Virus record (IMG/VR): IMGVR_UViG_3300017748_005032
Span: 1-36,995 of that record
From: a virus
Length of the DNA: 36,995 nucleotides
Strand: one strand, 5' to 3'
The notes under the pieces are model-generated. The model saw nothing but the letters and a program-made list of their open reading frames with translations. It had not been told where the DNA came from and did not search any database. Of this stretch, positions 10,615 through 36,995 are shown one piece after another. The number at the start of each line of letters is the position of its first letter. The first letter of the stretch is position 1. The position numbers and the translations under genes were made by a program.

Positions 10615-10627
10615 TTTTGTTCGTTGT

Positions 10628-11786: not shown

Positions 11787-12549
11787 TATTTTGCTTTTTT
11801 AAAAAGGTTCTGTAAAGTTGGTAATCACTGTAACCCGTATTATTAGGTAATTCAGGCCCACATAATAATCTTTTAGTTTTATTAGGTAATAATTTTAATT
11901 TTTTTAGATGATAAACAGATAACATGTGGTTAGATATACTATTCCATACTGGACATTTTTCTTTTATAATATAGTCGTTAATATGGTTATAAAGTAAACT
12001 AAAATCATCCATGTTTTTACTATTACTAATACACCATAAATCGTCTATTTCATAATCAGTTCCACTTTTATTATTAGGCCATCCCCATGGTACTTTTCCT
12101 TTTGTAGTTCCAGGTATATAAAAAATATCTTTATTAAGATTTGCACAAATAACATCTACAGTCCAAATCATATCAAAACGGGAAGTTATAACAAAATCAT
12201 ATTTAAAATTATTATCGGCTTCATATTTTTGTCTTAGATCATTTACAACTTTTGTACTATACCATTTACTATAATGGGCTTGAACTCTTTTTGTGGGGCC
12301 CGAAACTGTATTTTCGAATACTTTTTGGGGTTCTGTTTTATATAATTTAGGGGTGTAATTTTTTACTAATTCTTTTTCAAATTCATAATCCCATGTATGA
12401 AAAAATACATCAGTGTTGTTTTTATTAATAATGTGTTTTTGGAATGAATTAGAACATTCTTTTAATACTTCATCAGTACCCCCCTTTTTATCATAGGACT
12501 TTCCTCTATCACTGCCTACTAATCCATAAAGACATAAAGCTACTCTCAT
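11773..12549 (-). CDS. Glycosyltransferase-like protein of the sugar block (258 aa)
   Basis: Not firmly recognised. MRVALCLYGLVG at the start, VFFHTWDYEFE in the first quarter and YDFVITSRFDMIW in the middle (about 115-127) recall a group of putative glycosyltransferases common in phage and plant-virus sugar clusters, where R-x-D acts in place of DxD. DLWCISNSKNMDDF and a C-terminal LCGPELPNN follow. No signal peptide or membrane helix is seen. It shares ATGA with the HAD gene upstream and overlaps the methyltransferase by 14 nt. Confidence 0.6.
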   Translation of the reverse strand: MRVALCLYGLVGSDRGKSYDKKGGTDEVLKECSNSFQKHIINKNNTDVFFHTWDYEFEKELVKNYTPKLYKTEPQKVFENTVSGPTKRVQAHYSKWYSTKVVNDLRQKYEADNNFKYDFVITSRFDMIWTVDVICANLNKDIFYIPGTTKGKVPWGWPNNKSGTDYEIDDLWCISNSKNMDDFSLLYNHINDYIIKEKCPVWNSISNHMLSVYHLKKLKLLPNKTKRLLCGPELPNNTGYSDYQLYRTFLKKQNNGII

Positions 12550-12908
12550 ATTTCTATACTTTTAATTCCTTTATTACGTTCTAAGTTTATGGCAAATGCA
12601 TAATTTTCATCACCATAAGGTTTTCTATCATTTATAATATAACGTTTACCACCACCAATACCCATTATTAATTGATCATAAATGATTCCTGCTTCCTCTA
12701 ATTGGTTTTTAGTTACTTCTCTAAGACTTTCCTTTCTACCCGTAGTAAGAATAATATTATAACCCAATTTATCCCACTCTAAAATTTTTTCTATAGTACC
12801 TTCTAATAGATTTAATTTATGTGAGGGCCTTTGTGAATCTGTAGGTTTAGTATGTGTTACTAAAGTACCATCAATGTCACAAAATATAGTAACTGGTCTT
12901 TTATCCAT
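12546..12908 (-). CDS. HAD-family phosphatase, small sugar-cluster type
   Basis: 120 residues from the ATG at 12908 (MDKRPVTIFCDIDGTLV). Another ATG at 12917 adds three residues but deepens the overlap with the upstream gene. Motif I is DIDGTL with both Asp, motif II is the T in ILTTGR, and motif IV is the acidic residue in IINDRKP. No large cap domain is present, as in capsule-cluster HAD phosphatases and PNKP-type domains. It follows the GatZ-like gene and the nucleotidyltransferase-kinase fusion, so it may remove phosphate from a sugar-phosphate intermediate of that module. Confidence 0.82.
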   Translation of the reverse strand: MDKRPVTIFCDIDGTLVTHTKPTDSQRPSHKLNLLEGTIEKILEWDKLGYNIILTTGRKESLREVTKNQLEEAGIIYDQLIMGIGGGKRYIINDRKPYGDENYAFAINLERNKGIKSIEI

Positions 12909-13845
12909 ATAACTCATATAATTTTTTCTTTATATTAGTTTTAATTTGGGTATCAATATTAGGTTTAATTTTTAAAAACTCAGGATTAGATAAAACATAA
13001 TGTCCACATATTTTAATTAAATCTTCTTTTTGTGTAAGTGGATCAAAATCTGTATTGACCCATTTTTCCCATCGTTTAGAATTATAACAGATTTCCCAAA
13101 ATTTATCTAAATCAATATTATTATCTATGTATGTTTGAGTTTCTATAAGACCAAATTCAGGGGCTATATTAATTGAATTTAGACCTAAAGACATTTTTTC
13201 TTTTATAAGATCTACAGGTATATAATCTCCATTATGTTCTTTAGAAAGTAAATTCCAAGATTTAGCTATTTTAACCATATTTAAAAGTCTATTTTTATTA
13301 TACTCTCCAGTATTTAAATTACCTTTTAAAGATGTACCTGATTGAATTACCAAGTATTTAATTTGAGCAAATATTTTTTCTTCTAATGTAGTATGAAGAT
13401 CATTTAATAACATATCTAATTTCCCGGGTTCAAATTTTCTTATGGCTTCCTCGGTTCCTACCTCAAACTCAATATTGGGATTAAGATTATAACAAAATTT
13501 AATCATTTTTATAGTCCATCGTAATCCATCTTTATATTTAGGATATTTTTTCCAGGGATCTATATGAATTAAATTAAAATATTTACAATCTTCTTTTAAA
13601 GAAGTAAAACCATCATCATCTGTATAACCTTGACCTGGACCAGAATGGTCTCTTTTAAGGATTAGTGAGATAGCATGTTTACTAAATTCTTCGGTAGTCC
13701 AGTTATTAACATATCCACCATTCCACTCTATTTGTCTCCTAGAAGGAATTAAGCCTATATTATGTTTTGTTTCATTGCAAAATTCAATAATAGCATTTAC
13801 TATATTTTTAGACATGGGTCCTATGTAATATTTAGGATAATTCAT
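12901..13845 (-). CDS. GatZ/KbaZ-like (tagatose-bisphosphate aldolase subunit-related) protein
   Basis: 314 residues, probably a TIM barrel. RRQIEWNGGYVNNWTTEEF, then LKRDHSGPGQG, then FNLIHIDPWKKY and IEFEVGTEE follow the order seen in the non-catalytic GatZ/KbaZ subunits of class II tagatose-1,6-bisphosphate aldolase (GGYTGM..F, GGDHLGPN, KIHLD, EVGTE). The phage protein is shorter than the bacterial ones (about 420). The GGDH site reads KRDH. It overlaps the fusion gene upstream by 4 nt and the HAD gene by 8 nt. It may act as a sugar-phosphate isomerase or aldolase on its own; no GatY partner is seen. Confidence 0.62.
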   Translation of the reverse strand: MNYPKYYIGPMSKNIVNAIIEFCNETKHNIGLIPSRRQIEWNGGYVNNWTTEEFSKHAISLILKRDHSGPGQGYTDDDGFTSLKEDCKYFNLIHIDPWKKYPKYKDGLRWTIKMIKFCYNLNPNIEFEVGTEEAIRKFEPGKLDMLLNDLHTTLEEKIFAQIKYLVIQSGTSLKGNLNTGEYNKNRLLNMVKIAKSWNLLSKEHNGDYIPVDLIKEKMSLGLNSINIAPEFGLIETQTYIDNNIDLDKFWEICYNSKRWEKWVNTDFDPLTQKEDLIKICGHYVLSNPEFLKIKPNIDTQIKTNIKKKLYELYG

Positions 13846-15368
13846 TGTAAGTTTTTATAAAAATTATATTTCCCAAAATTAAATAAAAATTTATTAAAGG
13901 GGTATTCATGTAATGGGGCCATGTTTAACCAAATTATAGAAGTAAGTAATTCTACCTTTTTAAGGTCATAACCATGTTCTATTATAAATTTATGTAATAA
14001 TTTTTTACATCTTAGCAAAGTACTATTACATAGTATATAACAGTTTTCGGGAGAGTGACTATATAATCCTTGATCTATAATACCATGGTTTACCGTTAAA
14101 TTATGGTTAAGTTTAGCTAGATCGTAGTAAATATCTCCTACTTCTAGATCGCCAGCAAAATCTTGTCTCCAATCTATTAGAGTAAAGTCTTTATTAGTTT
14201 CTATTATATTGTCTAAAATAAAATCACCGTGAAATTGGCTAGGTATTCCATTACATAATTTTTGTTTGTCAATTTGGTCAAATAATGAGTAAATAGATGG
14301 TAAAGACTCCCCATTTATATTGTTACAGTCAGTATATTCTTTTAGGTACAAAGAAATTCTATCCAAAGACTTATCTATATAAAATTTATGGCAGCTAGTT
14401 TTAAAAGAATCTTTAGTTGTTTTAATCCATAAGTTGTTATGGGCCCATTTTAAAAATTTAGTAAATGATACTTCATTTACAGATTTAGAAAAAAGTTTAC
14501 CCTCAGCTTTTTGGTACTTATAAAAATTATTAGTTGATCCTAATATTTGTGGGACTAGGGGGTATAATTTTAGAGCCCTATCTACCCTATTTTTATTAGT
14601 AACAGGATCAGAAAAAAATTTAATAACAAAGTTATCAAAAAAGTAAATTGATTCATTTAATTTGTCTAAAACTTCTATACTACTACCAAAATGTTTTCTA
14701 GTTTTATTTAATTCCGTAACGTTCCCTATATCTAACCATTTATCAATTTGTTTAAATTCAAAAGATATAGATTTTAACATTTCATTAATAACATGTACAT
14801 CCGACAAAGAATGTTTATTAGGAAGATTTTCTAAACAAGACCAGAATAATTTATAATCTTTAATACCACATAATCCTATATAAGGATAGTCATAGTTGAT
14901 TTCTCCTTTTTCATTTATAAGGGTAACTTTACTATTACTAACTCTTAAAGTTCTATATTGAGATGTTTCTTCTTTGTATGCTCCAGCACACCAGTTAGTA
15001 ATAGGGAGAGGAATTTTATCTTCTTTTGTTAGTATTGTATCGCTAGCATGAAATATGAAAGGACACTGGAGGTAAGATTTTGCCTGTAATATGGAATATC
15101 CTAAACTACTTCCTTCTCCTTTAAATTTATCTACATTAATAAATGTAAAATCTTTATCAGGATATGTTAGTTCTAAAAATTCTTTTACATATGAACCAAA
15201 ATGCCCTAAAGTAATAACAAATTTAGTATCTTTAGGATATGATTCTATTATATAAGATAGGGCAGGTTTATCTCCTACTCTAACTAAACATTTATTAGTA
15301 AAATCAGTAAGATTACCTAATCTACTACCAATACCACTTGTGGTTATCAGTACCTTATACTCTTCCAT
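13842..15368 (-). CDS. Sugar-nucleotidyltransferase fused to choline/aminoglycoside-type kinase
   Basis: 508 residues in two domains. Residues 1-230 are a GT-A-like nucleotidyltransferase: TSGIGSRLGNLTDFTNKCLV (glycine loop and Lys26), HASDTIL with the metal Asp110, and WLDIGNVTEL at the end. Residues 240-508 are an APH/ChoK-fold kinase: HGDFILDN (380-387, Brenner motif) and LIDWRQDF (398-405, metal Asp399). The pair resembles LicC plus LicA in one chain, so one protein could phosphorylate a sugar or alcohol and then activate it with CTP or another NTP. The small cupin gene overlaps its start by 14 nt. Confidence 0.85.
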   Translation of the reverse strand: MEEYKVLITTSGIGSRLGNLTDFTNKCLVRVGDKPALSYIIESYPKDTKFVITLGHFGSYVKEFLELTYPDKDFTFINVDKFKGEGSSLGYSILQAKSYLQCPFIFHASDTILTKEDKIPLPITNWCAGAYKEETSQYRTLRVSNSKVTLINEKGEINYDYPYIGLCGIKDYKLFWSCLENLPNKHSLSDVHVINEMLKSISFEFKQIDKWLDIGNVTELNKTRKHFGSSIEVLDKLNESIYFFDNFVIKFFSDPVTNKNRVDRALKLYPLVPQILGSTNNFYKYQKAEGKLFSKSVNEVSFTKFLKWAHNNLWIKTTKDSFKTSCHKFYIDKSLDRISLYLKEYTDCNNINGESLPSIYSLFDQIDKQKLCNGIPSQFHGDFILDNIIETNKDFTLIDWRQDFAGDLEVGDIYYDLAKLNHNLTVNHGIIDQGLYSHSPENCYILCNSTLLRCKKLLHKFIIEHGYDLKKVELLTSIIWLNMAPLHEYPFNKFLFNFGKYNFYKNLQ

Positions 15369-15699
15369 AGTTATCTTCTAATCTAACAATATCGTCTTCA
15401 CCAAAATAAGAACCCAACTGAACTTCAATAAATACTAAATCTGTGTTACCCGTGTTTTTTATTTGGTGTTTTGCTTCAACTGGGATATGAATTATTTGAT
15501 TTGCAATAACAGGGGTTATTTTATCATTTAATTTTAATTCCCCTTCACCCTGTACTACTACCCATACTTCTTCTCTTTTAAAGTGATATTGGTAGCTAGG
15601 TGATTGCCCAGGTTTAATTATAATTTGTTTTACCTTACAATAGTTTGAATCTAGTAGATTTTCAAATGTACCCCAAGGGCGAGTTTCTTTATAATTCAT
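15355..15699 (-). CDS. Phosphomannose-isomerase-type cupin (ManC C-terminal-like)
   Basis: 114 residues, a stand-alone cupin matching the C-terminal isomerase domain of type II ManA/ManC proteins. Seen: RPWGTFENLL at the start, IIIKPGQSPSYQYH with its metal His, EEVWVVVQGEGEL, IHIPVEAKHQI with the second His set, and the ending VQLGSYFGEDDIVRLEDNYGR. The family converts fructose 6-phosphate and mannose 6-phosphate. No GDP-mannose pyrophosphorylase domain is attached, though the nucleotidyltransferase fusion follows directly. It begins one base after the DUF616-like gene ends. Confidence 0.88.
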   Translation of the reverse strand: MNYKETRPWGTFENLLDSNYCKVKQIIIKPGQSPSYQYHFKREEVWVVVQGEGELKLNDKITPVIANQIIHIPVEAKHQIKNTGNTDLVFIEVQLGSYFGEDDIVRLEDNYGRV

Positions 15700-16377
15700 T
15701 TATTTTCTTTTTTGGTGTTTACCCGTTTGTAAAAAGTATTTATTTTTTCTACTATCACCCTCTAAATAATTAAATTTAAAATCATTTTTCCAAGCTATAT
15801 AATTAAAACTTAATTGATCTCTTCTAGAACCATATTTTATTTCAACCCACCAGTCTTCCATATTCTTTATTACATCGGGATCATTATGTTTCCTAAGTAA
15901 AATAGGGTTAGTAGCTAAACCATTGTTGGAGGGATATCCTTCATTTACATATCTACTTACTTGTTTATGCATTAATTGGGGATTATCTTTATAATTCCCA
16001 CTTTGTTGTCCTAATTGCATAATAGCATTATATTCTTGGTAAATACAATCTCTAGGGTCTAAAATAGTCTTATTGTGATCAAAAACTTGATAGTGACTTT
16101 TTTTAATTAAATCCCTAATATCTGATATTATTAAAATATTCCCATCTATCCATACAGAATAATCATAATCCTGAAGGTATCTATGTGGTAAAATTTTATA
16201 TTTTTTAGCGTTCCTGTTGGGGTCATTATATATAGGGGTTGATTTAATTATATTCCAAGTATTAGATTGTAAATCTTCATCCGTAAAACATAAATAATCT
16301 ACTCCTTCCATTTGGAATTGATCCTCATGGAGTATATCGTATTTACCAAATATTGAAGTGTATACTGCTATTCTCAT
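15700..16377 (-). CDS. DUF616-like (TOD1/MUCI70-type) putative glycosyltransferase
   Basis: 225 residues. MRIAVYTSIFGKYD at the start, VDYLCFTDED, then the NRNAKKYKILPHRYL block followed by YSVWIDGNI match the DUF616 family, which is GT-A-like with WIDGN in the DxD position. The C-terminal HNDPDVIKNMEDWWVEIKYG and RRDQLSFNYIAWK segments also fit. It shares ATGA with the upstream GT-B-like gene. Family members act in polysaccharide synthesis. The donor is unknown. Confidence 0.75.
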   Translation of the reverse strand: MRIAVYTSIFGKYDILHEDQFQMEGVDYLCFTDEDLQSNTWNIIKSTPIYNDPNRNAKKYKILPHRYLQDYDYSVWIDGNILIISDIRDLIKKSHYQVFDHNKTILDPRDCIYQEYNAIMQLGQQSGNYKDNPQLMHKQVSRYVNEGYPSNNGLATNPILLRKHNDPDVIKNMEDWWVEIKYGSRRDQLSFNYIAWKNDFKFNYLEGDSRKNKYFLQTGKHQKRK

Positions 16378-17213
16378 AGATATATTTCGCTTTTAATGTA
16401 ATTAGAACCTAATTTACCTCTAGGTACTGTGTAAGTAGGAACATAATTAGCTATTGTATCATTTACCCCTGTTTGGTTACCAACATTAAAAGTTGCTAAT
16501 GTTTTAATGCACAATTGTATACGAGTATCCACATGTCTTAAATCTAATGCTCTTTTGAATTTAAAACCACTATCTTTTTTAGAAGTCCAATAGAACATAG
16601 GTAAATTATATTCATCTAACTTTTGTTGAATTAATTTTTTCCCTTCATTTTTATAGCGGTTAGAAATTAGTAAAGTCCCAAATTTTCCATCACAGTGTTC
16701 TTTAATTATTTGTTTAGATAATTTTATTTCTTTATCTGTAAAGTATAACTCTGGTTCTATGTTATCAAAATTATTAAACTGCCAAAATCTTAGTAATTCC
16801 TCCATAAGGGGTGTATCACTACCATCTGTAATTCTGTAATGATCATTAAAAGCATCGCCTTCAAATGAATCAATAAACCCATCAATATGGGGGTTATTAT
16901 CAAAAATTGTATGAACTACTTGGAAGGGACTTGACCAGGAACTCCAGTTTTGTTCTAAATGCCCAAACATTTCTTTAAGTAATTTTGGTGATGGTATCCA
17001 TACTTTACAATTTGGGTATTTTTCTTTAAGTTTTCGTGGAAATGCTGATATAATTCCCCAATCACCTACACCGAAACAAGTTCTTAAAACTACAAAATTT
17101 TGCTTTTCTAGATACTCATTAGGAATATATGATGGGTCATTTAGTTGAAAGCCTAACATATTTACTTCTTGAGTAGGATATACCTTATTATTATATGTTC
17201 TCCAAAAAACCAT
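16374..17213 (-). CDS. GT-B-fold (GT9-like) putative glycosyltransferase
   Basis: 279 residues. The first half has NFVVLRTCFGVGDWGIISAFPRK, resembling the acceptor-side start of heptosyltransferase-type proteins (GDxI..P.....K...P). The second half has GTLLISNRYKNEGKK and, near the end, NVGNQTGVNDTIANYV, in the position where GT9 enzymes read GxDSGxxHLA. Key residues are only partly conserved, so function is uncertain. A seven-base gap separates it from the GT2 gene upstream and a 4-nt overlap from the DUF616-like gene downstream. Confidence 0.55.
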   Translation of the reverse strand: MVFWRTYNNKVYPTQEVNMLGFQLNDPSYIPNEYLEKQNFVVLRTCFGVGDWGIISAFPRKLKEKYPNCKVWIPSPKLLKEMFGHLEQNWSSWSSPFQVVHTIFDNNPHIDGFIDSFEGDAFNDHYRITDGSDTPLMEELLRFWQFNNFDNIEPELYFTDKEIKLSKQIIKEHCDGKFGTLLISNRYKNEGKKLIQQKLDEYNLPMFYWTSKKDSGFKFKRALDLRHVDTRIQLCIKTLATFNVGNQTGVNDTIANYVPTYTVPRGKLGSNYIKSEIYL

Positions 17214-17219
17214 TATATA

Positions 17220-17846
17220 TTAGATTGTATTATAAAAGTTGTTTTGAATTTCTTGTCTTTCTATGGATTTTGGGTGAATAAGACAAAACTCATCATTTGC
17301 TGGTAATTGTGTTTGGCTCTTATGCCCATATAATACCTCGTGTACCTTACTTACCCATTGTATTGTAGGTGTATTTTGGAGTATACGGCATTGATAGTCA
17401 GGAAAGTTAACTCTACCATTAGGTTCAACATTCCACCCCCATTTTTGAATATGTTCCTTAGTTAAACCATCTACAGTATTAATCCGGGGGACCCAAAATA
17501 CCTCGGTATTAGGGTTTTGTTTTAAGATAGTAGGAAGCATAGATATTAAATATTCCTCAGGTATTTCATCAGCATCAATTTGAAAAACCCAATCCCCAGT
17601 ACAATTATTTTTAAGATTATTTTTAAAACTTGCAAAATCCCTATTCAGGGGGAATTCAATAATCTTAATTTTATTATGATATTTATCTAATACTTTATAA
17701 ACATTTTCTGTAGTATTGCCTTTATCACATTGGACTACGATTTCATCTGCTTCTTTTTTATATTTTAAAAGATGCTTAATTAATCCATCTATTTCTTCGT
17801 ACTCATTATGTACGGGTATAGCGTAACTTATTTTAGGGTCTTTCAT
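17220..17846 (-). CDS. GT2-family glycosyltransferase
   Basis: 208 residues. ISYAIPVHNEYEEIDGLIKHL opens the GT-A fold, EIVVQCDKGNTTENV follows, and WVFQIDADEIPEEYLI carries the DAD metal site at about 93-96. The acceptor part has the VNFPDYQCRIL and WVSKVHEVLYGH motifs common in KdtX/WaaE-type GT2 proteins that act in LPS core synthesis. The start shares ATGA with the zinc-ribbon gene. It is likely the best-conserved small GT2 of the block. Confidence 0.88.
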   Translation of the reverse strand: MKDPKISYAIPVHNEYEEIDGLIKHLLKYKKEADEIVVQCDKGNTTENVYKVLDKYHNKIKIIEFPLNRDFASFKNNLKNNCTGDWVFQIDADEIPEEYLISMLPTILKQNPNTEVFWVPRINTVDGLTKEHIQKWGWNVEPNGRVNFPDYQCRILQNTPTIQWVSKVHEVLYGHKSQTQLPANDEFCLIHPKSIERQEIQNNFYNTI

Positions 17847-18298
17847 GATTCAAATAATCCTATTTCTTTAGCGGCATCCATAAAACAATCCTTTCCATAA
17901 CGTTTTATATTAGGAATATCCATTTTAAATTCATAAAATTCTCCTGGGTTAGTAGGATCTGGATATTTATCTTTTTCTTCTTCTGTTACGGGAATTGCTT
18001 TAACAGCAGCCCAATACCAATCTTTTATTCGTTTATTCCATTCGGGGAATACCATCCCCTTTTCGGGTAAGTTAATAACTTTAGGATACCAAGCCAAATT
18101 TTCATGTACTTGTTTTAGATCCTTTATTATTTCTGCGGTTTGGCTATAATTTTCTTTTTCAAATTCGCTTCCATCCTCCATTAGGTTATTAGTAGTCATC
18201 CCACAAGTCCAACATTGTTGGATAATATTACCATCAGAAGTAGGGGCTTTTGTGCAAGCATTTGACCCACAACAGGGACATATTTCAAAATTATCCAT
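17843..18298 (-). CDS. Zinc-ribbon phage protein inside the sugar block (151 aa)
   Basis: An N-terminal zinc ribbon is clear: CPCCGS at 7-12 and CWTCGM at about 29-34. The remaining 115 residues are Trp/Tyr-rich and acidic (NLAWYPKVINLP, KDWYWAAVKAIPVTEEE) and not recognised. Such ribbons usually bind nucleic acid or a protein partner. Its place between two glycosyltransferase genes, overlapping them by 8 and 4 nt, is odd. It may bridge the sugar enzymes to another target, but that is speculation. Confidence 0.65.
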   Translation of the reverse strand: MDNFEICPCCGSNACTKAPTSDGNIIQQCWTCGMTTNNLMEDGSEFEKENYSQTAEIIKDLKQVHENLAWYPKVINLPEKGMVFPEWNKRIKDWYWAAVKAIPVTEEEKDKYPDPTNPGEFYEFKMDIPNIKRYGKDCFMDAAKEIGLFES

Positions 18299-19616
18299 TT
18301 ATTTTTTGCAATTTAGGAAGTTTAAGTTTAGGCAATTCTGGTTTGCTTTCCTCACTTACTTTTTTAAGTTTAGGGAGTTGTAATCCGGGCATTTGAAAAG
18401 GTACATTTACTGACACATTTATGTTATCCATATGGTTTTTAAGTACCTTAGTCATTTTATCTTGGCTAAAGTTTTCTTTAAGCCACTTAGTTTGTTTACG
18501 ACTTTGTTCAACATATTTTCTATAGTTTTTATAAACATCCTTTATGGCATGTGATGCGGCTTCTATATTAATATTAAACCAACTAGCTTCTTTAAGTAAC
18601 CATTTATTAGCAGCAGATTCATGGATAGGTTTTAATTCACCCCCAATTAATACATTATATTGAGCATTAATAAAATCAATATGGCCGCTCCAATTTGTTG
18701 TAATTACTGGTTTACCTGTAATTGCTTGTTCTAATAGGGGGCGACCAAAGCCTTCTCCTTTAGTAAAGGATATAAACGCCTTAACTTTAGGATCATTATT
18801 TAATTTATTAAGTTCATCATTGGTAAATTCACCATGTAATATGTAAATGTTAGGGAGATTTTCTTTATTAGTAAATTCATTTCTAATTTTTCTAATATCT
18901 TTAAGAATATCTTCTTTATCTAATAAACTATAATCAACCTTATTAGTTTTTAATAGTAGAGCGGGTTTAATACCTTTCTTATTAAAAGTTTTAAGGAAAG
19001 TTCTAATCATAGTAGCAACATTTTTTCTATCTTCACCAAATTTACCAGGTAACCAATGACCCGTAAATAAGAAACAAAAACTTTCATCTATATTGTTAAG
19101 TAATCCTGATTTATTAGGTTCTTTAAAATATACCCCGGTATCTAACCCTTCGAATAATACTTCAATAGGTTTATCGAGTTTAATTTGATTAATAGGGTTA
19201 CCTTGTTTATCATTTTCAGTAAATTGAACTTGACTAAAGGTATCCTTAGTAAATTGGGAAGATACAAGATTCAAATCCATATTATTCATTCCCTTAATAA
19301 AATCAGGGGGTGGAACTGTTGATTCAATACCTGCAGTAACACCAATATTATACTTACCTACTTTTTGGAATTCATTAGGAATACTGATTTGCATCCAAAT
19401 TTCGGGTTGTTGGGTAATTTCATTTATAAAGCGTGAACGCAGTTTATCACTTTTATCTAAAAACCCCCATGGGGTGTTTCCCCACCTTTGAGGGAGTATT
19501 TTAATATCCCATTCTTTATCTTTTACCTCTATAAGTGAGCGAACAAAATCGCGCGAACGGTGCCCATATCCGCTAAAGGTATCTATTGGACAACTGATTA
19601 TACAAGTTGGTTTCAT
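18291..19616 (-). CDS. GT4-family glycosyltransferase with PKLK-repeat tail
   Basis: 441 residues. The N-terminal domain has GYGHRSRDFVRSLIE, a GT-B acceptor-side helix. The C-terminal domain shows FLFTGHWLPGK, the ribose/phosphate-binding stretch, and FTKGEGFGRPLLEQAITGKPVI, the EX7E signature of GT4. The last 35 residues are low complexity with LPKLK, LPKLK and LPKLQ repeats, which suggests a flexible basic tail, perhaps for docking. It overlaps the other GT4 gene by 4 nt and the zinc-ribbon gene by 8 nt. Confidence 0.85.
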   Translation of the reverse strand: MKPTCIISCPIDTFSGYGHRSRDFVRSLIEVKDKEWDIKILPQRWGNTPWGFLDKSDKLRSRFINEITQQPEIWMQISIPNEFQKVGKYNIGVTAGIESTVPPPDFIKGMNNMDLNLVSSQFTKDTFSQVQFTENDKQGNPINQIKLDKPIEVLFEGLDTGVYFKEPNKSGLLNNIDESFCFLFTGHWLPGKFGEDRKNVATMIRTFLKTFNKKGIKPALLLKTNKVDYSLLDKEDILKDIRKIRNEFTNKENLPNIYILHGEFTNDELNKLNNDPKVKAFISFTKGEGFGRPLLEQAITGKPVITTNWSGHIDFINAQYNVLIGGELKPIHESAANKWLLKEASWFNINIEAASHAIKDVYKNYRKYVEQSRKQTKWLKENFSQDKMTKVLKNHMDNINVSVNVPFQMPGLQLPKLKKVSEESKPELPKLKLPKLQKING

Positions 19617-21082
19617 GCTAAAACTTCTTTTAATTTTTGTTCAAATTCAGGGGTATATTGGACGGGGTTTGGGTTATATGTGGTGTGTCCGTCACCAACT
19701 TTTTCTATACTAAATTTTTCCACAGGTTCCCAATTTTCAAATAAATGATCAATATTATCTATAAAATTCTGACCCATACCACTAGCTGCCATTCTTGCTT
19801 CCTCAGATAATAACCAATCACGACCCTTTAATCCTCTGCGTTTAATTTCATCTTTTCCTAAATTGTAACATTTTAAAAGAGATAAACCAGCATCTTCTAC
19901 ATCTACTTGAGTAGCATAAATATATGGGGTAGGAGGTGAACCTTTTAATGAACGTGTTTTACCAAACATTGGTATAGCCCATTCTCCGCATTTTTTGTAT
20001 TTACCATTGCTATTAGTAGGAAATTCAGTCGTAAAATTAATCCAATCACCATTTTCATCTTCAAAACGCATTTGGTCTTGCATACCCCCCTGAACGGGTG
20101 CTATTAGCATATTACCAGCCATAAGGCCTTCTGTGAGTGATAATCCCCACCCTTCATTATCAGTCATCATAAATTGAGCATCTGCCATATTATAATAATA
20201 ATTAAGGGTTTTTTCATCACATTTACCATAAGTAAATTTAATTTTATTTTTATTAGGATCACACATAGTTTCAATAACTGCAGGTATATCTGTACCATTA
20301 TTATCTATAGGGTCTGTGTGCATTATGAATAAACAACGCTCAGCTTGTTCAGGGGTTAATTGGTCTGTAAATATTCTCCAAGCAGTAACTAAATCACCAG
20401 GATTTTTACGGCGAATATTTCTGCTATTCCAAAATACCACAAAATCATATTCCTTACCCTCATAGAATTTTTCTTTAAATGCTTCAAATTCAAAATCGTT
20501 AACAATAGGGAAGAATTTTTTATCATCTATGCCATGGGGGACATATTGGGTTTGCCAATCTTCTTTTGGGTAGTCCCTAAGTACATTTTTAACTAGATTT
20601 TTAGTTTGTTTAGAAATACAAAGAAGAAGGTCATCTGAACGATAAAAATCTCTATTATACATTGGATAAGGTAAATCATCCCATATAGTATAAAAAATCA
20701 TAGGGATTTTAGTTCTAATTTCCTTTTCCATTCTATATAACCATGTCCAATAACGTGGGTCCGTAAAATGAAGGATAGCATCTGGCTTTTCCTGTTCAAG
20801 AAGTTGACGGATAATTTGGTCATCTCCATACCCACTCCATGGAATTACTTTCACATTAGAATCAGATAACCCAGTTACTTCATTTATCTGGGGGCTCAAA
20901 TCATAAGCATTACCCTGTTCAGGGTGCTTAACGGCAGCCCCTAAATTTACCCAATTAAAATGATGGGCTGTGTTTAGGACAATCTCTTTGCCCATAGTAC
21001 CTATACCACTGTGTAATCTAATATCATCACAGAGGAATAGTATTTTTTTTCTCTCCCCTTGGGGAATATAACCTTTTTTCAT
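19613..21082 (-). CDS. GT4-family glycosyltransferase (489 aa), first gene of the sugar block
   Basis: 489 residues. The N-terminal half has KILFLCDDIRLHSGIGTMGKEI, the glycine-containing start of GT-B proteins. The donor half has VVFWNSRNIRRKNPGDLV and DNEGWGLSLTEGLMAGNMLIAP, the EX7E motif near 323-332. It lies 21 nt after the ribbon-helix-helix gene and is the first of the 22-gene sugar block, so any promoter for the block should lie at or upstream of this point. No membrane segment is seen. Sugar donor unknown. Confidence 0.87.
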   Translation of the reverse strand: MKKGYIPQGERKKILFLCDDIRLHSGIGTMGKEIVLNTAHHFNWVNLGAAVKHPEQGNAYDLSPQINEVTGLSDSNVKVIPWSGYGDDQIIRQLLEQEKPDAILHFTDPRYWTWLYRMEKEIRTKIPMIFYTIWDDLPYPMYNRDFYRSDDLLLCISKQTKNLVKNVLRDYPKEDWQTQYVPHGIDDKKFFPIVNDFEFEAFKEKFYEGKEYDFVVFWNSRNIRRKNPGDLVTAWRIFTDQLTPEQAERCLFIMHTDPIDNNGTDIPAVIETMCDPNKNKIKFTYGKCDEKTLNYYYNMADAQFMMTDNEGWGLSLTEGLMAGNMLIAPVQGGMQDQMRFEDENGDWINFTTEFPTNSNGKYKKCGEWAIPMFGKTRSLKGSPPTPYIYATQVDVEDAGLSLLKCYNLGKDEIKRRGLKGRDWLLSEEARMAASGMGQNFIDNIDHLFENWEPVEKFSIEKVGDGHTTYNPNPVQYTPEFEQKLKEVLA

Positions 21083-28024: not shown

Positions 28025-28753
28025 TTATTGATTTTGATTTCTTACAAGATAATAATTACTTTCTAGGTCTCCAAATTTAAATGCAAAAGACATTAATCCT
28101 TTTGGATTTACTCTCATCCAACCTAATTCAAAACGTTTATTGTGTTTAAATATTTCTTTAACTAAATCCGCATTAAAAGGGATATTATCTAATGCTCCTT
28201 CAGAACTACTATCTTCTATATGAGAAGCAAAAGATACTGAATTAGATGTACTATTCCCTATAGTAAATTTTATTTCAGGTGAAGTAAACCCATCTTGGGT
28301 AGAAACATAAAATACTTCTTCACCTACTGCGTCTTTAGATTTAATAAAACGTGTAGTAAATTCTTCATTTAATTCTACATGAATATCATTTTCAGTTTTA
28401 TTAATATTAGGTACCTTAGGAATAACTTGAGGGTCTGCTAAGTTAAATTTAATATCCATAGCAGTATCCCCAATAGTAAATTTAGAGGGAATTTTATTTT
28501 CTTTGACTATTTCAAACATAACTTCGTTTTCAAGAATCCCTAACATTTTACTAAGTGTAGAAGTACTATAAATACCAAATTCACCTATAGGGAATTTAAA
28601 TTTTTTAGATACTACTTTACCTACTAAATTTTGAGAATCATTTATAAAGTCTGCTTTAAGGGATTCACCATCTGAAACCCACTTAACTCGTTCTATATTA
28701 CCACCTAAATGGTATTTACCTATAAAACTATCTATTATTCTTTTATCTGTCAT
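28025..28753 (-). CDS. 45: Sliding clamp (T4 gp45-like DNA polymerase processivity factor)
   Basis: 242 residues (T4 gp45 is 228). Two-domain clamp layout: an N-terminal half with VVSKKFKFPIGEFGIYSTSTLSKMLGIL (the T4 gp45 F-x-I-x-D/L-x-x-FL type strand-helix) and a C-terminal half with NIPFNADLVKEIFKHNKRFELGWMRVNPKGLMSFAF. The protein forms a ring on DNA for the polymerase. Its start overlaps the polymerase C-terminal gene stop as TAATG, and groES follows. Function call rests on size, layout and context. Confidence 0.85.
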   Translation of the reverse strand: MTDKRIIDSFIGKYHLGGNIERVKWVSDGESLKADFINDSQNLVGKVVSKKFKFPIGEFGIYSTSTLSKMLGILENEVMFEIVKENKIPSKFTIGDTAMDIKFNLADPQVIPKVPNINKTENDIHVELNEEFTTRFIKSKDAVGEEVFYVSTQDGFTSPEIKFTIGNSTSNSVSFASHIEDSSSEGALDNIPFNADLVKEIFKHNKRFELGWMRVNPKGLMSFAFKFGDLESNYYLVRNQNQ

Positions 28754-29679
28754 TAGAATGAGAAAAAATTATTTACATGTGTGTTAAGGGTTAAACTACC
28801 CCAACTTAAGTCTTTATAGAAGGTTTCTAACTTATTTTTTAAGATTGAATCAAATGCTTTGTTTCTATCTATATAAGTCTCTACGAATGTACGAATACCT
28901 TCTGGGAAATCAAAGTCTAAGAAACCCATTGTGTCAATCTTGTATGGGTTATCTTTTAAATATACCCATTTGATTTTATCTCCCTGTACAATTTGTGAGT
29001 GTTTTTTATCTAGACCTTTAAATCTAAGAAAATCATTATAACGAACAGCAGCTTTAACATTAACAGGTGCCCCTGTTTTTAATACTGTAAATATATTTCC
29101 GGCACCCGGGGGGCGTTCAACATATTTTTTAATGTCTTTTACTCCAGTAGGTTTGCCTAGCAATTCAAGTGGTAACTCATTTAGGCTATTTTTGAATTCA
29201 AGAATCTCTTGGTCAATTTCACTTCGAGTAGCACCAAATAGGATTTTATTAAGTATACCATTAAAGAATTTCTTAAATAAGGGTGGGAAATTTGATTTCA
29301 TAAAGTCAAGACCTTTAACATCAATATCCTCTACCTTCATACCCTCTTTTTTAGTAATATATTGGGCATATCTTCTTTTACCTGAGAAAAAACCAGAACG
29401 AATGGTACATTCGGTTTTCATTTCAAGTCGATGTTTATTGATATTAAATGCTTCCTCAGCTAATGTGTCATAGTATTCTGTAATGAGATCCTGATACTTA
29501 AGGGCCATTTTTTCTAAAAGATCATCTTGTTCTTCCTCTGACATTTCAGAGAAATTAGGATATAAATGTTTTAGAAGTGGCTCAGCATGGAAGTAATTAG
29601 AGTCTGTGTCAACATATGTACAGAAGTTTTTATCGTCTTCTTTACATATCCACCAGGGTATTTGTTCTTGATTAACCAT
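28753..29679 (-). CDS. 43B: DNA polymerase family B, C-terminal part (split gp43)
   Basis: 308 residues. Starts with a 21-residue lead, then motif C TYVDTDS at 21-27 with the metal Asp24 and Asp26. The rest is thumb and end: KRRYAQYITKKEGMKVEDIDVKG carries the KKRYA-type motif (polymerase motif KxY) and the tail DKIKWVYL.. NPYKIDTMGF. Together with the 571-residue N-terminal part this gives 879 residues, close to T4 gp43 (898), so nothing essential seems lost. Two separate starts are present: the small ORF between them has its own stop. It must assemble with the N-terminal part to be active. Confidence 0.93.
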   Translation of the reverse strand: MVNQEQIPWWICKEDDKNFCTYVDTDSNYFHAEPLLKHLYPNFSEMSEEEQDDLLEKMALKYQDLITEYYDTLAEEAFNINKHRLEMKTECTIRSGFFSGKRRYAQYITKKEGMKVEDIDVKGLDFMKSNFPPLFKKFFNGILNKILFGATRSEIDQEILEFKNSLNELPLELLGKPTGVKDIKKYVERPPGAGNIFTVLKTGAPVNVKAAVRYNDFLRFKGLDKKHSQIVQGDKIKWVYLKDNPYKIDTMGFLDFDFPEGIRTFVETYIDRNKAFDSILKNKLETFYKDLSWGSLTLNTHVNNFFSF

Positions 29680-29942
29680 TAAAATCTTTCGTCTATACCG
29701 GGAATTGTAATTATACCACCATCCTTTTCACCACGAGAATTTAAAATATTTTCGTTAATAGTAATTTCAAATAAATCCCCATTAATTTTTACATTTCCCC
29801 CTTGTTGGACCATTTTACGAAAATACGAAAGCTGTTTGTCATTCCAACCCTCACTTAATGTAAGTATTACTTCTTTTTTAACATATTCACCATTCATTTG
29901 AATGAGAACATTACTTCTTATTGATTGTGGAGATAATCCCAT
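29679..29942 (-). CDS. Small ORF (87 aa) between the two polymerase halves
   Basis: Not recognised. It is joined to both halves by exact TAATG junctions, so it looks like a cassette in the same mRNA. The sequence is alpha-beta: KKEVILTLSEGWNDKQL, then a YFRKMVQQGGNVKINGD segment, then ITINENIL and a GGIITIPG ending. It shows no intein ends, HNH, GIY-YIG or LAGLIDADG motif, so it is not a homing endonuclease or intein remnant by sight. It does not resemble the polymerase palm. It might help the two parts assemble. Confidence 0.75.
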   Translation of the reverse strand: MGLSPQSIRSNVLIQMNGEYVKKEVILTLSEGWNDKQLSYFRKMVQQGGNVKINGDLFEITINENILNSRGEKDGGIITIPGIDERF

Positions 29943-31657
29943 TATAATTCTATTTTTAATTCGCCCCTAAGGACTTTGTTCATGTGTGTGTTTGCAAATA
30001 ATGCTGATTCTTGGATGATTCTTTGACCACTTAATGTTATAGCTTCACTAAGGATAACGCTACCATATCTAAAACTAGGTAAGGCAGTTGCACCATAAAG
30101 TGAATTCAGCAAGATTTTCATGGTATACTGTTTAAGGTGATTTAATTCGCCTTCTTTTTTATTACCACTTTTATAAGCAACTTTCATTGCTTTCTTATAT
30201 CTGACTCGTTCATCAAACCACTTATCAAGAATAACAGACAATACAGATTCCTTATCAGTTCTAAACATAACCCCATTTGCAGTGATTGTTAAATCATGTT
30301 GTTTAATCTTACTGATTATATCACTTACACGCGTATTTTGCGTTTTACGTGCGGTATTTTCAAGTGGAAGGGTAGCTTCAGGGTCGTCGTTGACCATTTT
30401 TTCTAGGTCATTTAATCCAAGTCTATTATTTCTGTCATTATATAAATCCAATACCCTACCAATATATGTTTCTTTACCAATATTAAGTGACATAATGATT
30501 GAAGGGTATAGTGACGTAAGGTCTTCATCAAACATATAATTGTAGATACCTGTTTTAGGGCAGAATAAGTAGCCACCTGCGTAATTTTTCTTTGTAAGTG
30601 GATCTAAATCTTTATTAGGGGGAATAGTACCCTGAGAAATTAACCAGCTTGAAATTGCTCCATCATGAATACGAGATGATTGGTATACTTCTTCATATGA
30701 TACTTTTCCCTTATGGGCTAAGTTTTTAGTTAGATCAATATACTTAAATTTTTCATCAAGTTTCTTAAGGATTAAAACATCAACAAAGTTATATTCAATG
30801 AATTTCTCTTTATCTTCAGCAAATAATCTATCAAGTGATCCTTCGTATTCAATTTTCTTTTGATCTACGTATTTTTCACCTAATGAATCTAGTTTATAAG
30901 AAGGTTCGTCTTTAAAACTATATTTTTTATGCATTCTCATGTAATCAAGAGAAGCAACTCCTGCAATACGAATAGGCATATCTTCATCCCAATGTCTCTC
31001 TTCTATAATGTTAATGGGGGACATTCTTTTTACAGTACGACTACCCATAGTGTTTTTAATTCTATAATAGAGGTAGGGAATATCAAAATAATCACTATTA
31101 TACCCAACTAAAATATCAGGTTGAACATCCTCCATCATAGTAATAAACTTATCTAGTAAGTCTGTTTCTCTGGGTACGGGAATTACTTCTCTTCCTTGGC
31201 TATCAAATGTATGTTCAAGATTTCCTTCCTTATCAACAATAATAATTTTCCATTCATCTACCTGACGATCCCACCACGCAATTGAAGTAACAGGTTTAGG
31301 GGCAGATTTAATATATTCAGGGGTTAGTGCACCCCCCATCTCAATCTCAATATCGAAAAATACTTCTCTATGAGTAACAGAAGGTGTATCATCATCTCCA
31401 TATCTGTCAATAAGGAATTTAGTATGGATGTTACCTCTAGTATGATCCGAATAATGCATTCGAGGATCCTCTCGGTTCCAGTTAAATACTTTTTTTAGAT
31501 TTTCACCCTTCAAACCTTGGTGTGTGGCTTGTTCTTGATGACACTCTATATAACCATAATTTTGGAATTCTTCTTCAGAGTACCCTTCATCAGTCCAGAG
31601 ATGGATTCGGTAATGATTCCACTCATCACCTCGTTGAACATAACAATTTTTGTACAT
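29942..31657 (-). CDS. 43A: DNA polymerase family B, N-terminal part with exonuclease (split gp43)
   Basis: 571 residues. Proofreading exonuclease motifs: Exo I FDIEIE (101-106; Asp102, Glu104), Exo II GYNSDYFD (185-192), Exo III YNFVDV (289-294; Asp293). Palm motif A is DLTSLYPSII (379-388) and motif B is KILLNSLYGA (514-523). The chain ends at residue 571, about 48 residues after motif B and before motif C, which is in the separate downstream gene. It shares its first base with the thioredoxin stop. Split T4-like polymerases are known in some Aeromonas phages, so function is likely retained. Confidence 0.96.
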   Translation of the reverse strand: MYKNCYVQRGDEWNHYRIHLWTDEGYSEEEFQNYGYIECHQEQATHQGLKGENLKKVFNWNREDPRMHYSDHTRGNIHTKFLIDRYGDDDTPSVTHREVFFDIEIEMGGALTPEYIKSAPKPVTSIAWWDRQVDEWKIIIVDKEGNLEHTFDSQGREVIPVPRETDLLDKFITMMEDVQPDILVGYNSDYFDIPYLYYRIKNTMGSRTVKRMSPINIIEERHWDEDMPIRIAGVASLDYMRMHKKYSFKDEPSYKLDSLGEKYVDQKKIEYEGSLDRLFAEDKEKFIEYNFVDVLILKKLDEKFKYIDLTKNLAHKGKVSYEEVYQSSRIHDGAISSWLISQGTIPPNKDLDPLTKKNYAGGYLFCPKTGIYNYMFDEDLTSLYPSIIMSLNIGKETYIGRVLDLYNDRNNRLGLNDLEKMVNDDPEATLPLENTARKTQNTRVSDIISKIKQHDLTITANGVMFRTDKESVLSVILDKWFDERVRYKKAMKVAYKSGNKKEGELNHLKQYTMKILLNSLYGATALPSFRYGSVILSEAITLSGQRIIQESALFANTHMNKVLRGELKIEL

Positions 31658-34377: not shown

Positions 34378-34505
34378 TCTTCTTCTATAACTTTTTTTAA
34401 TTTATCTATTAACTCTTCTACATCATCGGGTTCCATAGTTACAGCACAACATATGCAAACATTTTCTCTTATTTCTTCTAAAATTTCGAGTGCTTGTTCT
34501 TTCAT
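34362..34505 (-). CDS. Cys-containing small peptide (47 aa)
   Basis: ATG at 34505 overlaps the queE stop as TAATG; the stop is at 34362 inside the start of hpt. The peptide is helical and acidic with ENVCICCAVTM at 14-24, a CxCC cluster, followed by DDVEELIDKLKKVIEEE. The exact junction with queE favours a real gene. It could bind a metal or an Fe-S centre, or act as a small partner of QueE, which is itself an Fe-S enzyme, but this is speculation. Confidence 0.55.
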   Translation of the reverse strand: MKEQALEILEEIRENVCICCAVTMEPDDVEELIDKLKKVIEEEWKKQ

Positions 34506-35278
34506 TATACTCCTCTTTCAGTGTTATATGCTATAATATGATCTCTACCAGTCATGTTATAACCATGTTCAGCTACCATTTCGAATACTTTAGGATACAT
34601 TTCTACTAAAGTTTCCCTAGTATCACCCGCAGGCATAACATATGTTTTATCTTTAGGAATATTCATTTTAACCCTAAAGTCTTCAATTTCAACTAAATTT
34701 TCATCTGTTCCATCCCATACTGGTTTGTAATGGTAGTCATCATGAAATTGGAGGGTTTGTTCTATAGCTTCATAATTGAGCCTAAACTTCTCATGCCGCG
34801 CGACAAACCTTTCATCAACAACTTTATCACCGGGAGTAGTAATACCCACACGAGGACGGGAATTAGAAAACTTAGGACTAAGAGATATGAGACCAATCGG
34901 ATAATCGGTAGGAACAAAATGTGATCCTTCGGTTTCGATTGTAATAAGGATTCCTCTTTCATTTGCAAAATGTGTTAATTCATTTACTAAGGCAGGATGC
35001 ATTGTAGGTGAACCACCCGTTAGCATCATTTCCTTTACATGCGGGTTCTCATCATAAATATTAATTATATCATTAAATGTAAATGTACCTTTCTGTGGAT
35101 GGATACTCGTATACCAAGAATCACACCATCCACCTTCACCAAACCAACATCGGTGAGTACACCCGGTAGTTCGAACGGCAATAGTGGGGCGCCCGAAACG
35201 GGAACCCTCACTTTGCACGCATCGATATACCTCTAATACAGGTAATACTTTATCGTAATCTTCTATTCTCTTACGCAT
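34505..35278 (-). CDS. queE: 7-carboxy-7-deazaguanine synthase, unusual Cys spacing
   Basis: 257 residues from the ATG at 35278 (MRKRIEDYDK); a longer open frame to 35362 overlaps the fasciclin gene and is rejected. Radical SAM enzyme converting 6-carboxytetrahydropterin to CDG. LEVYRCVQSEGSRFGRPTIAVR is the QueE N-terminus. The Fe-S cysteines are Cys40, Cys44 and Cys52 (GCTHRCWFGEGGWCDSWY), spacing CX3CX7C against the common CX3CX2C, so five residues are inserted. MLTGGSPTMHP (SAM-binding GGE-like region) and ETEGSHF follow. QueC, FolE and Hpt flank it, one preQ0 group. Confidence 0.92.
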   Translation of the reverse strand: MRKRIEDYDKVLPVLEVYRCVQSEGSRFGRPTIAVRTTGCTHRCWFGEGGWCDSWYTSIHPQKGTFTFNDIINIYDENPHVKEMMLTGGSPTMHPALVNELTHFANERGILITIETEGSHFVPTDYPIGLISLSPKFSNSRPRVGITTPGDKVVDERFVARHEKFRLNYEAIEQTLQFHDDYHYKPVWDGTDENLVEIEDFRVKMNIPKDKTYVMPAGDTRETLVEMYPKVFEMVAEHGYNMTGRDHIIAYNTERGV

Positions 35279-35285
35279 ACTAATA

Positions 35286-36260
35286 TTAGTTTTCAGTGCG
35301 GATGTACTGCTTACCGTTAAAAATATAAATTGTTCCAAACGGAATATCACGAGTATTATCAAATCTTTGACCCATAATATTATAATAGTTATTATCTAGT
35401 GGGCGTTGAGTGTTTTGAATTTCTCCTACACTATTTATTGAACCACTTTCACCACCATCTACAACTGTAATGGTGAATCCACTCACGAATCCATTTAACA
35501 TTCCTAATGAATCTACAGAAACTGATTGGCAAAAAGTATCATAACATCCTAGTGCATTATCTTCTATAATCAAACAAAGAATATGGGGACCATCTGTGGC
35601 ATACTCCCATGTAGGAAAAGGGTCATTGCTTATACCTTCGTCTCCAAAAGCCCAAGTATAAATCGCATTTGGGTTATAATCATAAATTGTAACCGTTAAA
35701 GAACCTAAGACAGGTTCATTACCTTCTACAGTCTGTGCCACATCAAAATAAGCATTACATGCACCTGTACCATTAATAGGTTGTAATACTTCATCAATTA
35801 CATGTACTACTCCATTATCTGTAATAATATCAAATGTTGTAACATTAGTAGTTCCATTTAGTACAACAGCATTACCTATTGATTGATAATAAAGTGGATT
35901 ATTCGTCAGTAAAGTAAGTAAATTATTAAATAAAGTATTTCCTAAATCATATAATTCATCGCTTAATACCACATCCCCTAGTACATGGTACATAAGGATC
36001 TCAGTAAGATCTGGTAGTTCAAGCAGTTGTTCAACTGGAACCCCTAATTCTTCTGCTAAAGCTATAAATGCAGCATCTGTAGGAGCAAATACTGTAAATG
36101 TACCTTCACCTTCTAAGGTGTCTTGCAATCCAGATACACTAATTGCGGCTTCAAGATAGGTGTGGTCTTCACTTCCTTCAATTACAGACCACACTGTGGA
36201 TTGGGAATAACTAGTTAGGGTGATTAAAGCCAACCCAAAGGCCATTAAAACGTTTTTCAT
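35286..36260 (-). CDS. Secreted fasciclin (FAS1) + PKD-like protein with T9SS-like C-terminal signal
   Basis: 324 residues. Residues 1-20 are a signal peptide (MKNVLMAFGLALITLTSYSQ), a form common in Bacteroidota. FAS1 runs about 22-161: FTVFAPTDAAF (H1), YHVLGDVVL, and NGVVHVIDEVLQP (H2). A PKD-like domain follows at about 168-250 (YTWAFGDEGIS, then YDTFCQSVSV). The tail at 291-322 (NYYNIMGQRF, then IYIFNGKQYI) resembles the short YNLxGQ..GIYI.NGK sorting signal of type IX secretion. FAS1 domains act in adhesion. The gene lies between queC and queE, so a phage may deliver a host-surface protein. A virion role is the alternative. Confidence 0.87.
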   Translation of the reverse strand: MKNVLMAFGLALITLTSYSQSTVWSVIEGSEDHTYLEAAISVSGLQDTLEGEGTFTVFAPTDAAFIALAEELGVPVEQLLELPDLTEILMYHVLGDVVLSDELYDLGNTLFNNLLTLLTNNPLYYQSIGNAVVLNGTTNVTTFDIITDNGVVHVIDEVLQPINGTGACNAYFDVAQTVEGNEPVLGSLTVTIYDYNPNAIYTWAFGDEGISNDPFPTWEYATDGPHILCLIIEDNALGCYDTFCQSVSVDSLGMLNGFVSGFTITVVDGGESGSINSVGEIQNTQRPLDNNYYNIMGQRFDNTRDIPFGTIYIFNGKQYIRTEN

Positions 36261-36296: not shown

Positions 36297-36995
36297 TTAT
36301 GCATTCTCTAATACTTTTTCTACATGGTTTCGTACAGTTCCCCAATCAACAGGTCCTGTCTCGTCTGCATACTCGACTGGATCAGGTCTTCCCACTTTGA
36401 GAAAAGCCTCAACCCTCTCCACCGATGAAGCTGATTTATAATCACTGTACCAAGTACCACCAATATTAATGGGCTTGTAACTAGTGTTTGTGTTCCTATA
36501 TACTTTGTCAAAGTCAAGTCCGAGCTCATCACAACACCTGGCTCCATCCTGAAGAATGTCAAACTTATCACCATCAAGATAAGGGGTAATATAGCTAACG
36601 CGCTCAGCGTCCCAATTACCTTCGGTGAAGGCTGTATAGTCAGCGTCCCTGAATTCTTGTCTACAATCAGGATAAATTGCATGATCGCCTGCATGAATAC
36701 CCATTGCGATATTGACTTTTGTATCTTTTTCATTTGCTACTGATAATGCTACTGCTTGAATAATTGATGAAAATATTTTATTACGGTTAGGAACAACTGT
36801 TTCCTTCATATTATCTTGTTCATAGTGTCCTTCGGGCACTTCATCTCCACCTTCTACAAGGGCACTATTAAGCATAGGGGCCAAACCATCAAGTTTAATG
36901 GTTCCGTATTTTACTTTAGGGTATACTTTAACTAAATTCCCATCTAAATTAGGTTGAATAGCTTTTTCATTAATATAATCTACTAATGATTGGGC
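36297..36995 (-). CDS. queC: QueC-like 7-cyano-7-deazaguanine synthase, N-terminus beyond window, zinc Cys missing
   Basis: The frame is open to the right window edge, so the N-terminus is missing; about 232 codons are present. VVPNRNKIFSSIIQAVA (substrate and nucleotide region), GIHAGDHAIYPDCRQEF, and YITPYLDGDKFDI match QueC. In QueC the C-terminus has a zinc site (TSCY then CGxCxxCxxR). Here it reads TSYKP, then YKSASSVERV, with Ser/Tyr where the Cys are expected. The enzyme may lack zinc or do another adenylating reaction. Hand-counted GC is about 47% at 36301-36420, well above the sugar block. Confidence 0.88.
   Translation of the reverse strand, partial: AQSLVDYINEKAIQPNLDGNLVKVYPKVKYGTIKLDGLAPMLNSALVEGGDEVPEGHYEQDNMKETVVPNRNKIFSSIIQAVALSVANEKDTKVNIAMGIHAGDHAIYPDCRQEFRDADYTAFTEGNWDAERVSYITPYLDGDKFDILQDGARCCDELGLDFDKVYRNTNTSYKPINIGGTWYSDYKSASSVERVEAFLKVGRPDPVEYADETGPVDWGTVRNHVEKVLENA

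Follow-up and report, generated by a model that had tools for sequence, protein, structure and literature searches.

A phage-encoded FAS1 protein with a short C-terminal tail as a candidate cargo of the host type IX secretion system

The stretch of DNA analyzed here, called the window in the following, comprises positions 1 to 36,995 of the IMG/VR record IMGVR_UViG_3300017748_005032 from a marine virus. Close to its end, in between queC and queE, it contains a gene that resembles that of a secreted adhesin. What could a phage gain from such a gene, and where would the protein go? An original prediction, made from the letters alone, suggested that infected cells display the protein on their surface by means of the host type IX secretion system (T9SS). 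We followed up this idea with profile searches, structure models and comparisons against phage and bacterial sequences.

The gene, its product and the phage

The predicted open reading frame is real and encodes a protein of 324 aa. The features referred to below are the following:

35286..36260 (-), gene for a secreted protein with FAS1, PKD-like and short-tail parts; 324 aa, ATG start, relatives found
36201..36260 (-), Sec signal peptide, residues 1-20 (MKNVLMAFGLALITLTSYSQ); from sequence and hydrophobicity, no lipobox Cys
35778..36161 (-), FAS1 (fasciclin) domain, residues 34-161; PF02469, E=3.6e-24
35553..35669 (-), core of a PKD-like domain, residues 198-236; PF18911, E=0.0013, sub-threshold
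35289..35435 (-), putative short T9SS-type C-terminal signal, residues 276-324; from tail profile, host matches and fold
35364..35384 (-), motif B equivalent YNIMGQR, residues 293-299; classical CTDs align in the same register
35298..35339 (-), motif D/E equivalent FGTIYIFNGKQYIR, residues 308-321; predicted beta-hairpin
36297..36995 (-), queC; PF06508, E=6.2e-19, PHROG 1550; start beyond the window end
34505..35278 (-), queE; 257 aa, ATG at 35278, PHROG 2076, E=9.2e-47, radical SAM

The gene starts 36 nt past the stop codon of queC (36297) and stops 7 nt ahead of the queE ATG (35278), with all three genes on one strand. Both neighbors were identified by profile (Pfam, PHROGs), so that the predicted placement between queC and queE holds. 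For queE, a listed TTG start at 35362 was rejected as too early and the ATG at 35278 was taken instead.

The predicted domain make-up gained support as well. The signal peptide is evident from sequence, and hydrophobic N-termini of this type occur in 12 of the 12 complete tail-bearing phage ORFs examined, a 13th being cut by the contig end. The FAS1 domain lies well over the curated cut-off (PF02469, 85.8 bits vs. 22). In contrast, the PKD-like domain stays below it in the window protein (PF18911, 19.1 bits vs. 27). However, an orthologue (L004) exceeds the curated cut-offs in the aligned region, with 31.1 bits vs. 27 for PF18911 and 24.2 vs. 23.5 for PF00801. Thus the PKD-like reading of the window protein appears justified. 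A model of the full-length protein was poor (pLDDT 36.5).

The phage GroEL is nearest to that of Flavobacterium phage immuto (58.5%), followed by those of Bacteroides phages. Thus the host most likely belongs to the Bacteroidota, in agreement with the phage type that had been proposed. Farther along the window, Pfam and PHROGs profiles identified GTP cyclohydrolase I, a phosphoribosyltransferase, and the T4-type DNA polymerase, clamp and clamp loader. The T4-type capsid gene gp23 is absent from the window fragment but occurs on two contigs that carry tagged proteins, one of 270 kb and one of 166 kb. The polymerase is split (28753-31657): an ORF of 87 aa separates its two parts, which comprise 571 and 308 aa, and contigs of a cousin phage share this split. 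A further region, 3191-21082, comprises a run of genes resembling sugar or surface modification functions (a Nol-like carbamoyltransferase, glycosyltransferases, a DAHP-synthase-like aldolase and a GtrB-like match). The T4-type late promoter TATAAATA is not enriched in the window. The terminase family PF20441 gave no match in any record, which is uninformative for T4-type phages.

Anatomy of the short tail

Tails of the kind studied here span 49-51 aa and end at the stop codon; that of the window protein (YNIMGQ...FGTIYIFNGKQYIRTEN, 35289-35435) comprises 49 aa. It had been taken for a type IX sorting tail, and the original prediction named a profile search without a T9SS match as a result that would speak against it. 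Taken literally, this is the result we obtained: TIGR04183 and PF18962 match neither the whole window protein nor the isolated tail, which is thus no long type A signal, and none of the curated T9SS models matches the tail. However, as a control, TIGR04183 and PF18962 were run on short-tail proteins of bacterial hosts and on the C-terminal 130 residues of L095, the best bacterial match described below, and missed all of these too. Because the same models overlook this tail in T9SS bacteria, the negative result is not a refutation. The reading as a T9SS-type tail is supported, while its assignment to the standard type A is not: it rather appears to be of a short kind, about 50 aa long, that TIGR04183 and PF18962 do not see.

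Compared to the type A domain (TIGR04183/PF18962), the tail shows the same register of motif B (IYDLMGREI / YYNIMGQRF) and the same C-terminal position, whereas the YPNP part is missing and it is shorter by about 30 residues. Alignment to long CTDs by hhalign was weak and restricted to motif B (probability 4.4%, E=0.0093).

Short CTDs have been described from Prevotella intermedia, which according to the authors is the sole species of the phylum reported to possess both long and short ones (PMC11969387). They comprise 43-55 aa with a motif B (Tyr, an invariant Gly and a basic residue), a motif D (GxY or GxN followed by Ile; its Gly is invariant, and it lies 1-6 aa away from motif B) and a motif E (Lys/Arg). 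They are predicted to form a single three-stranded sheet and carry the cleavage motif PT/GI, and both cleavage and glycosylation were observed (PMC11969387).

The tail of the window protein resembles these short CTDs in length, in the Tyr, Gly and basic residue of motif B, in the basic motif E, and in being combined with a signal peptide and unrelated cargo domains. Its predicted fold agrees as well. In the AlphaFold2 model of the tail, a disordered and presumably flexible linker (pLDDT 34-38) precedes a three-stranded sheet from about residue 284 to 324 (pLDDT about 79-89), which bears a short helix in its loop. A PDB fold search with the 63-residue tail model returned nothing significant.

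Other aspects differ. Motif D reads GxxY instead of GxY in phage and host tails alike (GTIYI, thus GxxYI, in the window tail), and its Gly is replaced in several phage relatives. In the phages, the spacer between motifs B and D exceeds the published 1-6 aa, and the setting is one of Flavobacteriales and phages. Across 20 phage and host tails the Gly of motif B is invariant and its Tyr is conserved in at least 90%, while some phage relatives have the basic residue in a preceding position (GRE) or lack it (GQE). Motif E (NGKQYIRTEN) contains the Lys/Arg of the published motif. A possible cleavage site might be seen in the phage sequence SG/SINSVGE, which resembles TGINS; host tails begin with GI.E. 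We thus describe the tail, as judged from its residues, as short-CTD-like without filing it as a strict member of the short CTDs, from which motif D and the spacer differ.

Relatives in phages and bacteria

Two near-identical IMG/VR contigs represent the same virus (L002 with 0 and L003 with 1 nt difference in the gene). The orthologue L004 from IMG/VR is 70% identical to the window protein, and more distant gene copies reside on contigs of 10 to 270 kb. The reading frame is intact in every complete copy, and dN/dS between diverged copies is 0.13-0.27. Between L020 and L027 it decreases to 0.05 in the tail, the most constrained part of that pair. Among annotated phage records no relative of the window protein was found; with a bacterial FAS1-repeat protein as query, FAS1 was detected in a single record of this collection, which is 5.3 kb in size and carries no annotation.

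The tail follows FAS1 (L020, L027), FAS1-FAS1 (L014, L015, L018), FAS1-PKD (window) and FAS1-PKD-FAS1 (L004). It ends unrelated cargo as well (L032-L038), including proteins with unrelated middles in freshwater phages. A signal peptide is present in each of these architectures wherever the start is complete. On the grounds of these sequences we regard the C-terminal tail as a modular tag.

The position of the gene varies by phage group, queC-queE in one case and PEPCK-DHH in the other. The gene is kept in at least two phage groups, and the slot beside queE is conserved in two related lineages. Directly upstream of the FAS1/tail gene, three contigs encode a 490-aa ORF (L014:4405-5877, L004:1346-2818, L015:4405-5877). 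In L014, whose region is the same as in the 270-kb contig that bears gp23, this ORF encodes an ATP-dependent PEP carboxykinase of nearly full length (PF01293, E=5.5e-143).

A search for the same gene in the preQ0 region of other phages, as the original prediction had proposed, was successful: the cousin phage (contigs of 66-110 kb) shows the gene order queC-queD-FAS1/tail-queE, and its DNA polymerase is split as in the window. After queE it encodes an M43 metallopeptidase with the tail YNMMGQKV...TGIYII...KEKIF, and next a protein of about 500 aa (511 aa in L020) with a TIGR04131 type B T9SS signal (38.1/39.3 vs. a cut-off of 35). In L020 both lie directly past queE (7496-11004), the tail of the metallopeptidase being type A-like. 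Curated signals were found in other phages, too. On the 270-kb contig with T4-type gp23, a FAS1-FAS1-tail protein is accompanied by two type B proteins (PF13585), of which one is tag-only, and two other tag-bearing contigs encode TIGR04183 proteins above the cut-off.

The tag-only proteins deserve separate mention. L118:1976-2347 and L122:1265-1630 encode proteins of 121-123 aa that are composed of nothing but a signal peptide plus a type B T9SS signal (PF13585, E=4.8e-14) and lack a cargo domain; IMG/VR yielded no copies beyond these two. They could occupy the T9SS or serve as surface peptides. Beside the tag-bearing gene of a freshwater phage, L034:6162-7178 encodes a product that shows an SprB repeat along with a weak Hoc-like match and ends VDLMGKE...IRYIKE, similar to the short tail.

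An earlier scan of genome contigs with phage-only tail patterns gave no confirmed relative, and a profile search of whole genomes then revealed host tails. Within one order, sampled around a Flavobacteriales MAG, the tail profile matched in 24 of 299 genomes. At least 17 of the matched loci appear to encode short secreted proteins with this tail, one of them on a 2.2-Mb contig (L089). The best matches in the order are chromosomal secreted proteins ending, for example, GIEEL...DNKIYDLMGRELKEAPIGQLYIQNGKK, next to a few weak matches of another kind (e.g., L087, L088). A draw of 395 genomes across the phylum yielded 12 matches in 11 genomes, 10 of the 12 in C-terminal regions. The best one, L095, comprises 489 aa and ends TGINSIESEKSSHHSAYDNKYYNIMGMNVKNPVKGLFIYNGKKIIK (E=1e-8). 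Eight of the other 11 are type A signals of the classical long kind, with N[YF]PNPF... ahead of I/VYDLMGREI, and align at motif B. L096 is a further C-terminal end (YYDLMGREI), and two matches look like chance.

SprA is encoded in 17 of the 18 tail-positive genomes checked, the exception being the 1.7-Mb genome G296, and PorV was matched in all 18 (17 above the cut-off). This lends weak support to a link with the T9SS, as both proteins are common in Bacteroidota and the comparison covers tail-positive genomes only.

The nearest bacterial FAS1 relatives are mostly proteins from marine Flavobacteriales MAGs with the same start (..AQTTVVDVVVNSEDHTLLEAAV), most of which carry a long type A tag; L040, for example, passes TIGR04183. 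These Flavobacteriales proteins (L040-L047) share a signal peptide and a FAS1 domain of about 46-50% identity with the window protein, but differ in that FAS1 is repeated several times and a long type A tag takes the place of the short one. In addition, a freshwater phage cargo with the same short tail (L033:5611-6159) is 84% identical to a secreted protein of a host chromosome (L145:7626-8156). The host gene lies between dxr (DXP reductoisomerase) and pheT (Phe-tRNA synthetase beta) on a 137-kb Flavobacteriales contig, and the order dxr-gene-pheT is repeated in a second genome. Together, identity and gene setting point to an exchange between host chromosome and phage, in either direction. The window gene was probably acquired from Flavobacteriales hosts, in which FAS1 proteins bear long T9SS tags and the short tag occurs on other proteins.

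A probable phage-made cargo of the host T9SS and its alternatives

We consider it likely that the window gene encodes a phage-made cargo of the host T9SS, which would be displayed on or released from infected cells. The domain make-up, the modular tag, homologous tags in T9SS bacteria, the curated T9SS signals in related phages and purifying selection all argue for this reading, and the export proposed by the original prediction gains accordingly in plausibility at the level of sequence. The Sec signal peptide would direct the protein to the periplasm. There, the C-terminal tag of about 50 residues would be recognized by the translocon and shuttle of the host (SprA/PorV) and the protein would cross the outer membrane. 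The sortase of the host (PorU) would probably cleave off the tag, and what remains, the FAS1-PKD part, would be anchored to the surface or released.

Other scenarios could be envisioned. The protein might stay in the periplasm or associate with the outer membrane as an envelope protein, its tail being a generic beta-hairpin and no export tag. The missing match to any curated T9SS model and the weak hhalign result with long CTDs would fit. Nevertheless, the tail profile finds classical T9SS CTDs phylum-wide, at motif B, related phages carry curated T9SS signals, and the three-stranded fold agrees with the published short CTDs, so we hold this to be unlikely. Alternatively, the protein could decorate the phage particle in a Hoc- or fiber-like manner, with a tail left over from a bacterial ancestor. 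Ig-like and PKD-like domains are indeed often found on virions, and the weakly Hoc-like neighbor with the SprB repeat in the tag-bearing freshwater phage (L034) points in this direction. However, a Sec signal peptide would take the protein out of the cytoplasm, where virions assemble. The gene belongs to a queC-queE set and not to a structural module, the window shows no excess of T4-type late promoters, and the tail recurs in conserved form on unrelated cargo and is the most constrained part between L020 and L027 (dN/dS 0.05). A role on the virion thus seems quite improbable.

The gene might as well be a passenger, acquired from a host by accident and of no benefit to the phage. Its closest bacterial relatives being FAS1 proteins of hosts, and its genomic position differing between phage groups, are in line with such an origin. 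Yet the dN/dS values between diverged copies indicate purifying selection, all complete copies are intact, and the gene was retained in at least two phage groups with a conserved slot next to queE in two related lineages. We therefore give this explanation very little credence.

If the protein is indeed exported as T9SS cargo, its purpose is most likely a remodeling of the surface of the infected cell, either by masking or altering the phage receptor or by changing adhesion and aggregation. In Flavobacterium columnare, mutants in T9SS and gliding genes resist phages (PMC9233685), which makes such remodeling plausible. More specifically, a covered or altered receptor might exclude superinfecting phages. 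The same mutants indicate that T9SS-dependent surface proteins matter for adsorption (PMC9233685), and this very role was proposed by the authors of the Cryophage study for its cargo (PMC7468147). However, adhesion, aggregation or matrix binding by FAS1 would explain the anatomy of the protein equally well, so we put superinfection exclusion forward only tentatively, as a possible but doubtful function. Adhesion or aggregation through FAS1 is as compatible with the data as surface remodeling. The roles suggested by the original prediction, a block to other phages, clumping or altered attachment, are to be taken as guesses of equal standing.

The original prediction knew of no established example in T4-like phages. 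This has to be amended in part, since phage-encoded T9SS cargo has precedents. Cryophage encodes an endoglucanase, a GH39 and a PA14 protein as type A cargo, for which a surface role was proposed (PMC7468147), and in a gut phage an ORF with BACON cargo, located near the head module, carries a T9SS sorting domain (PMC6949934). Cryophage is a Bacteroidota phage whose proteins bear T9SS signals, as the window phage appears to be; in contrast to the latter, it is a 76-kb phage from cryoconite with long tags and other cargo, and lacks FAS1, the short tag and the que operon. The BACON ORF is likewise a phage ORF with a T9SS signal and differs in its cargo and in its location near the head module. 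A literature search of partial coverage, and hence to be read as weak evidence, revealed no precedent for FAS1 or for T4-like phages: it yielded neither phage-encoded FAS1 proteins nor short T9SS tags from phages or Flavobacteriales, nor any example among T4-like phages.

Taken together, we lean slightly toward a broader scenario. Tailed phages that infect marine and freshwater Flavobacteriales and are in part T4-like would carry whole sets of T9SS-addressed proteins. Their tags would be of three kinds (short, long type A and type B), attached to adhesins, peptidases and cargo of unknown nature, and the tag-only type B proteins would belong to these sets as well. In this way the phages would either remodel the infected cell's surface or keep its secretion system occupied.

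Current annotation models are blind to short tags, and many secreted proteins of this kind are probably labeled hypothetical. If our reading is correct, the short type of T9SS tag, reported in one oral species, would extend to Flavobacteriales and their phages, and lytic phages of Bacteroidota would possess a route to alter the surface of their host during infection.
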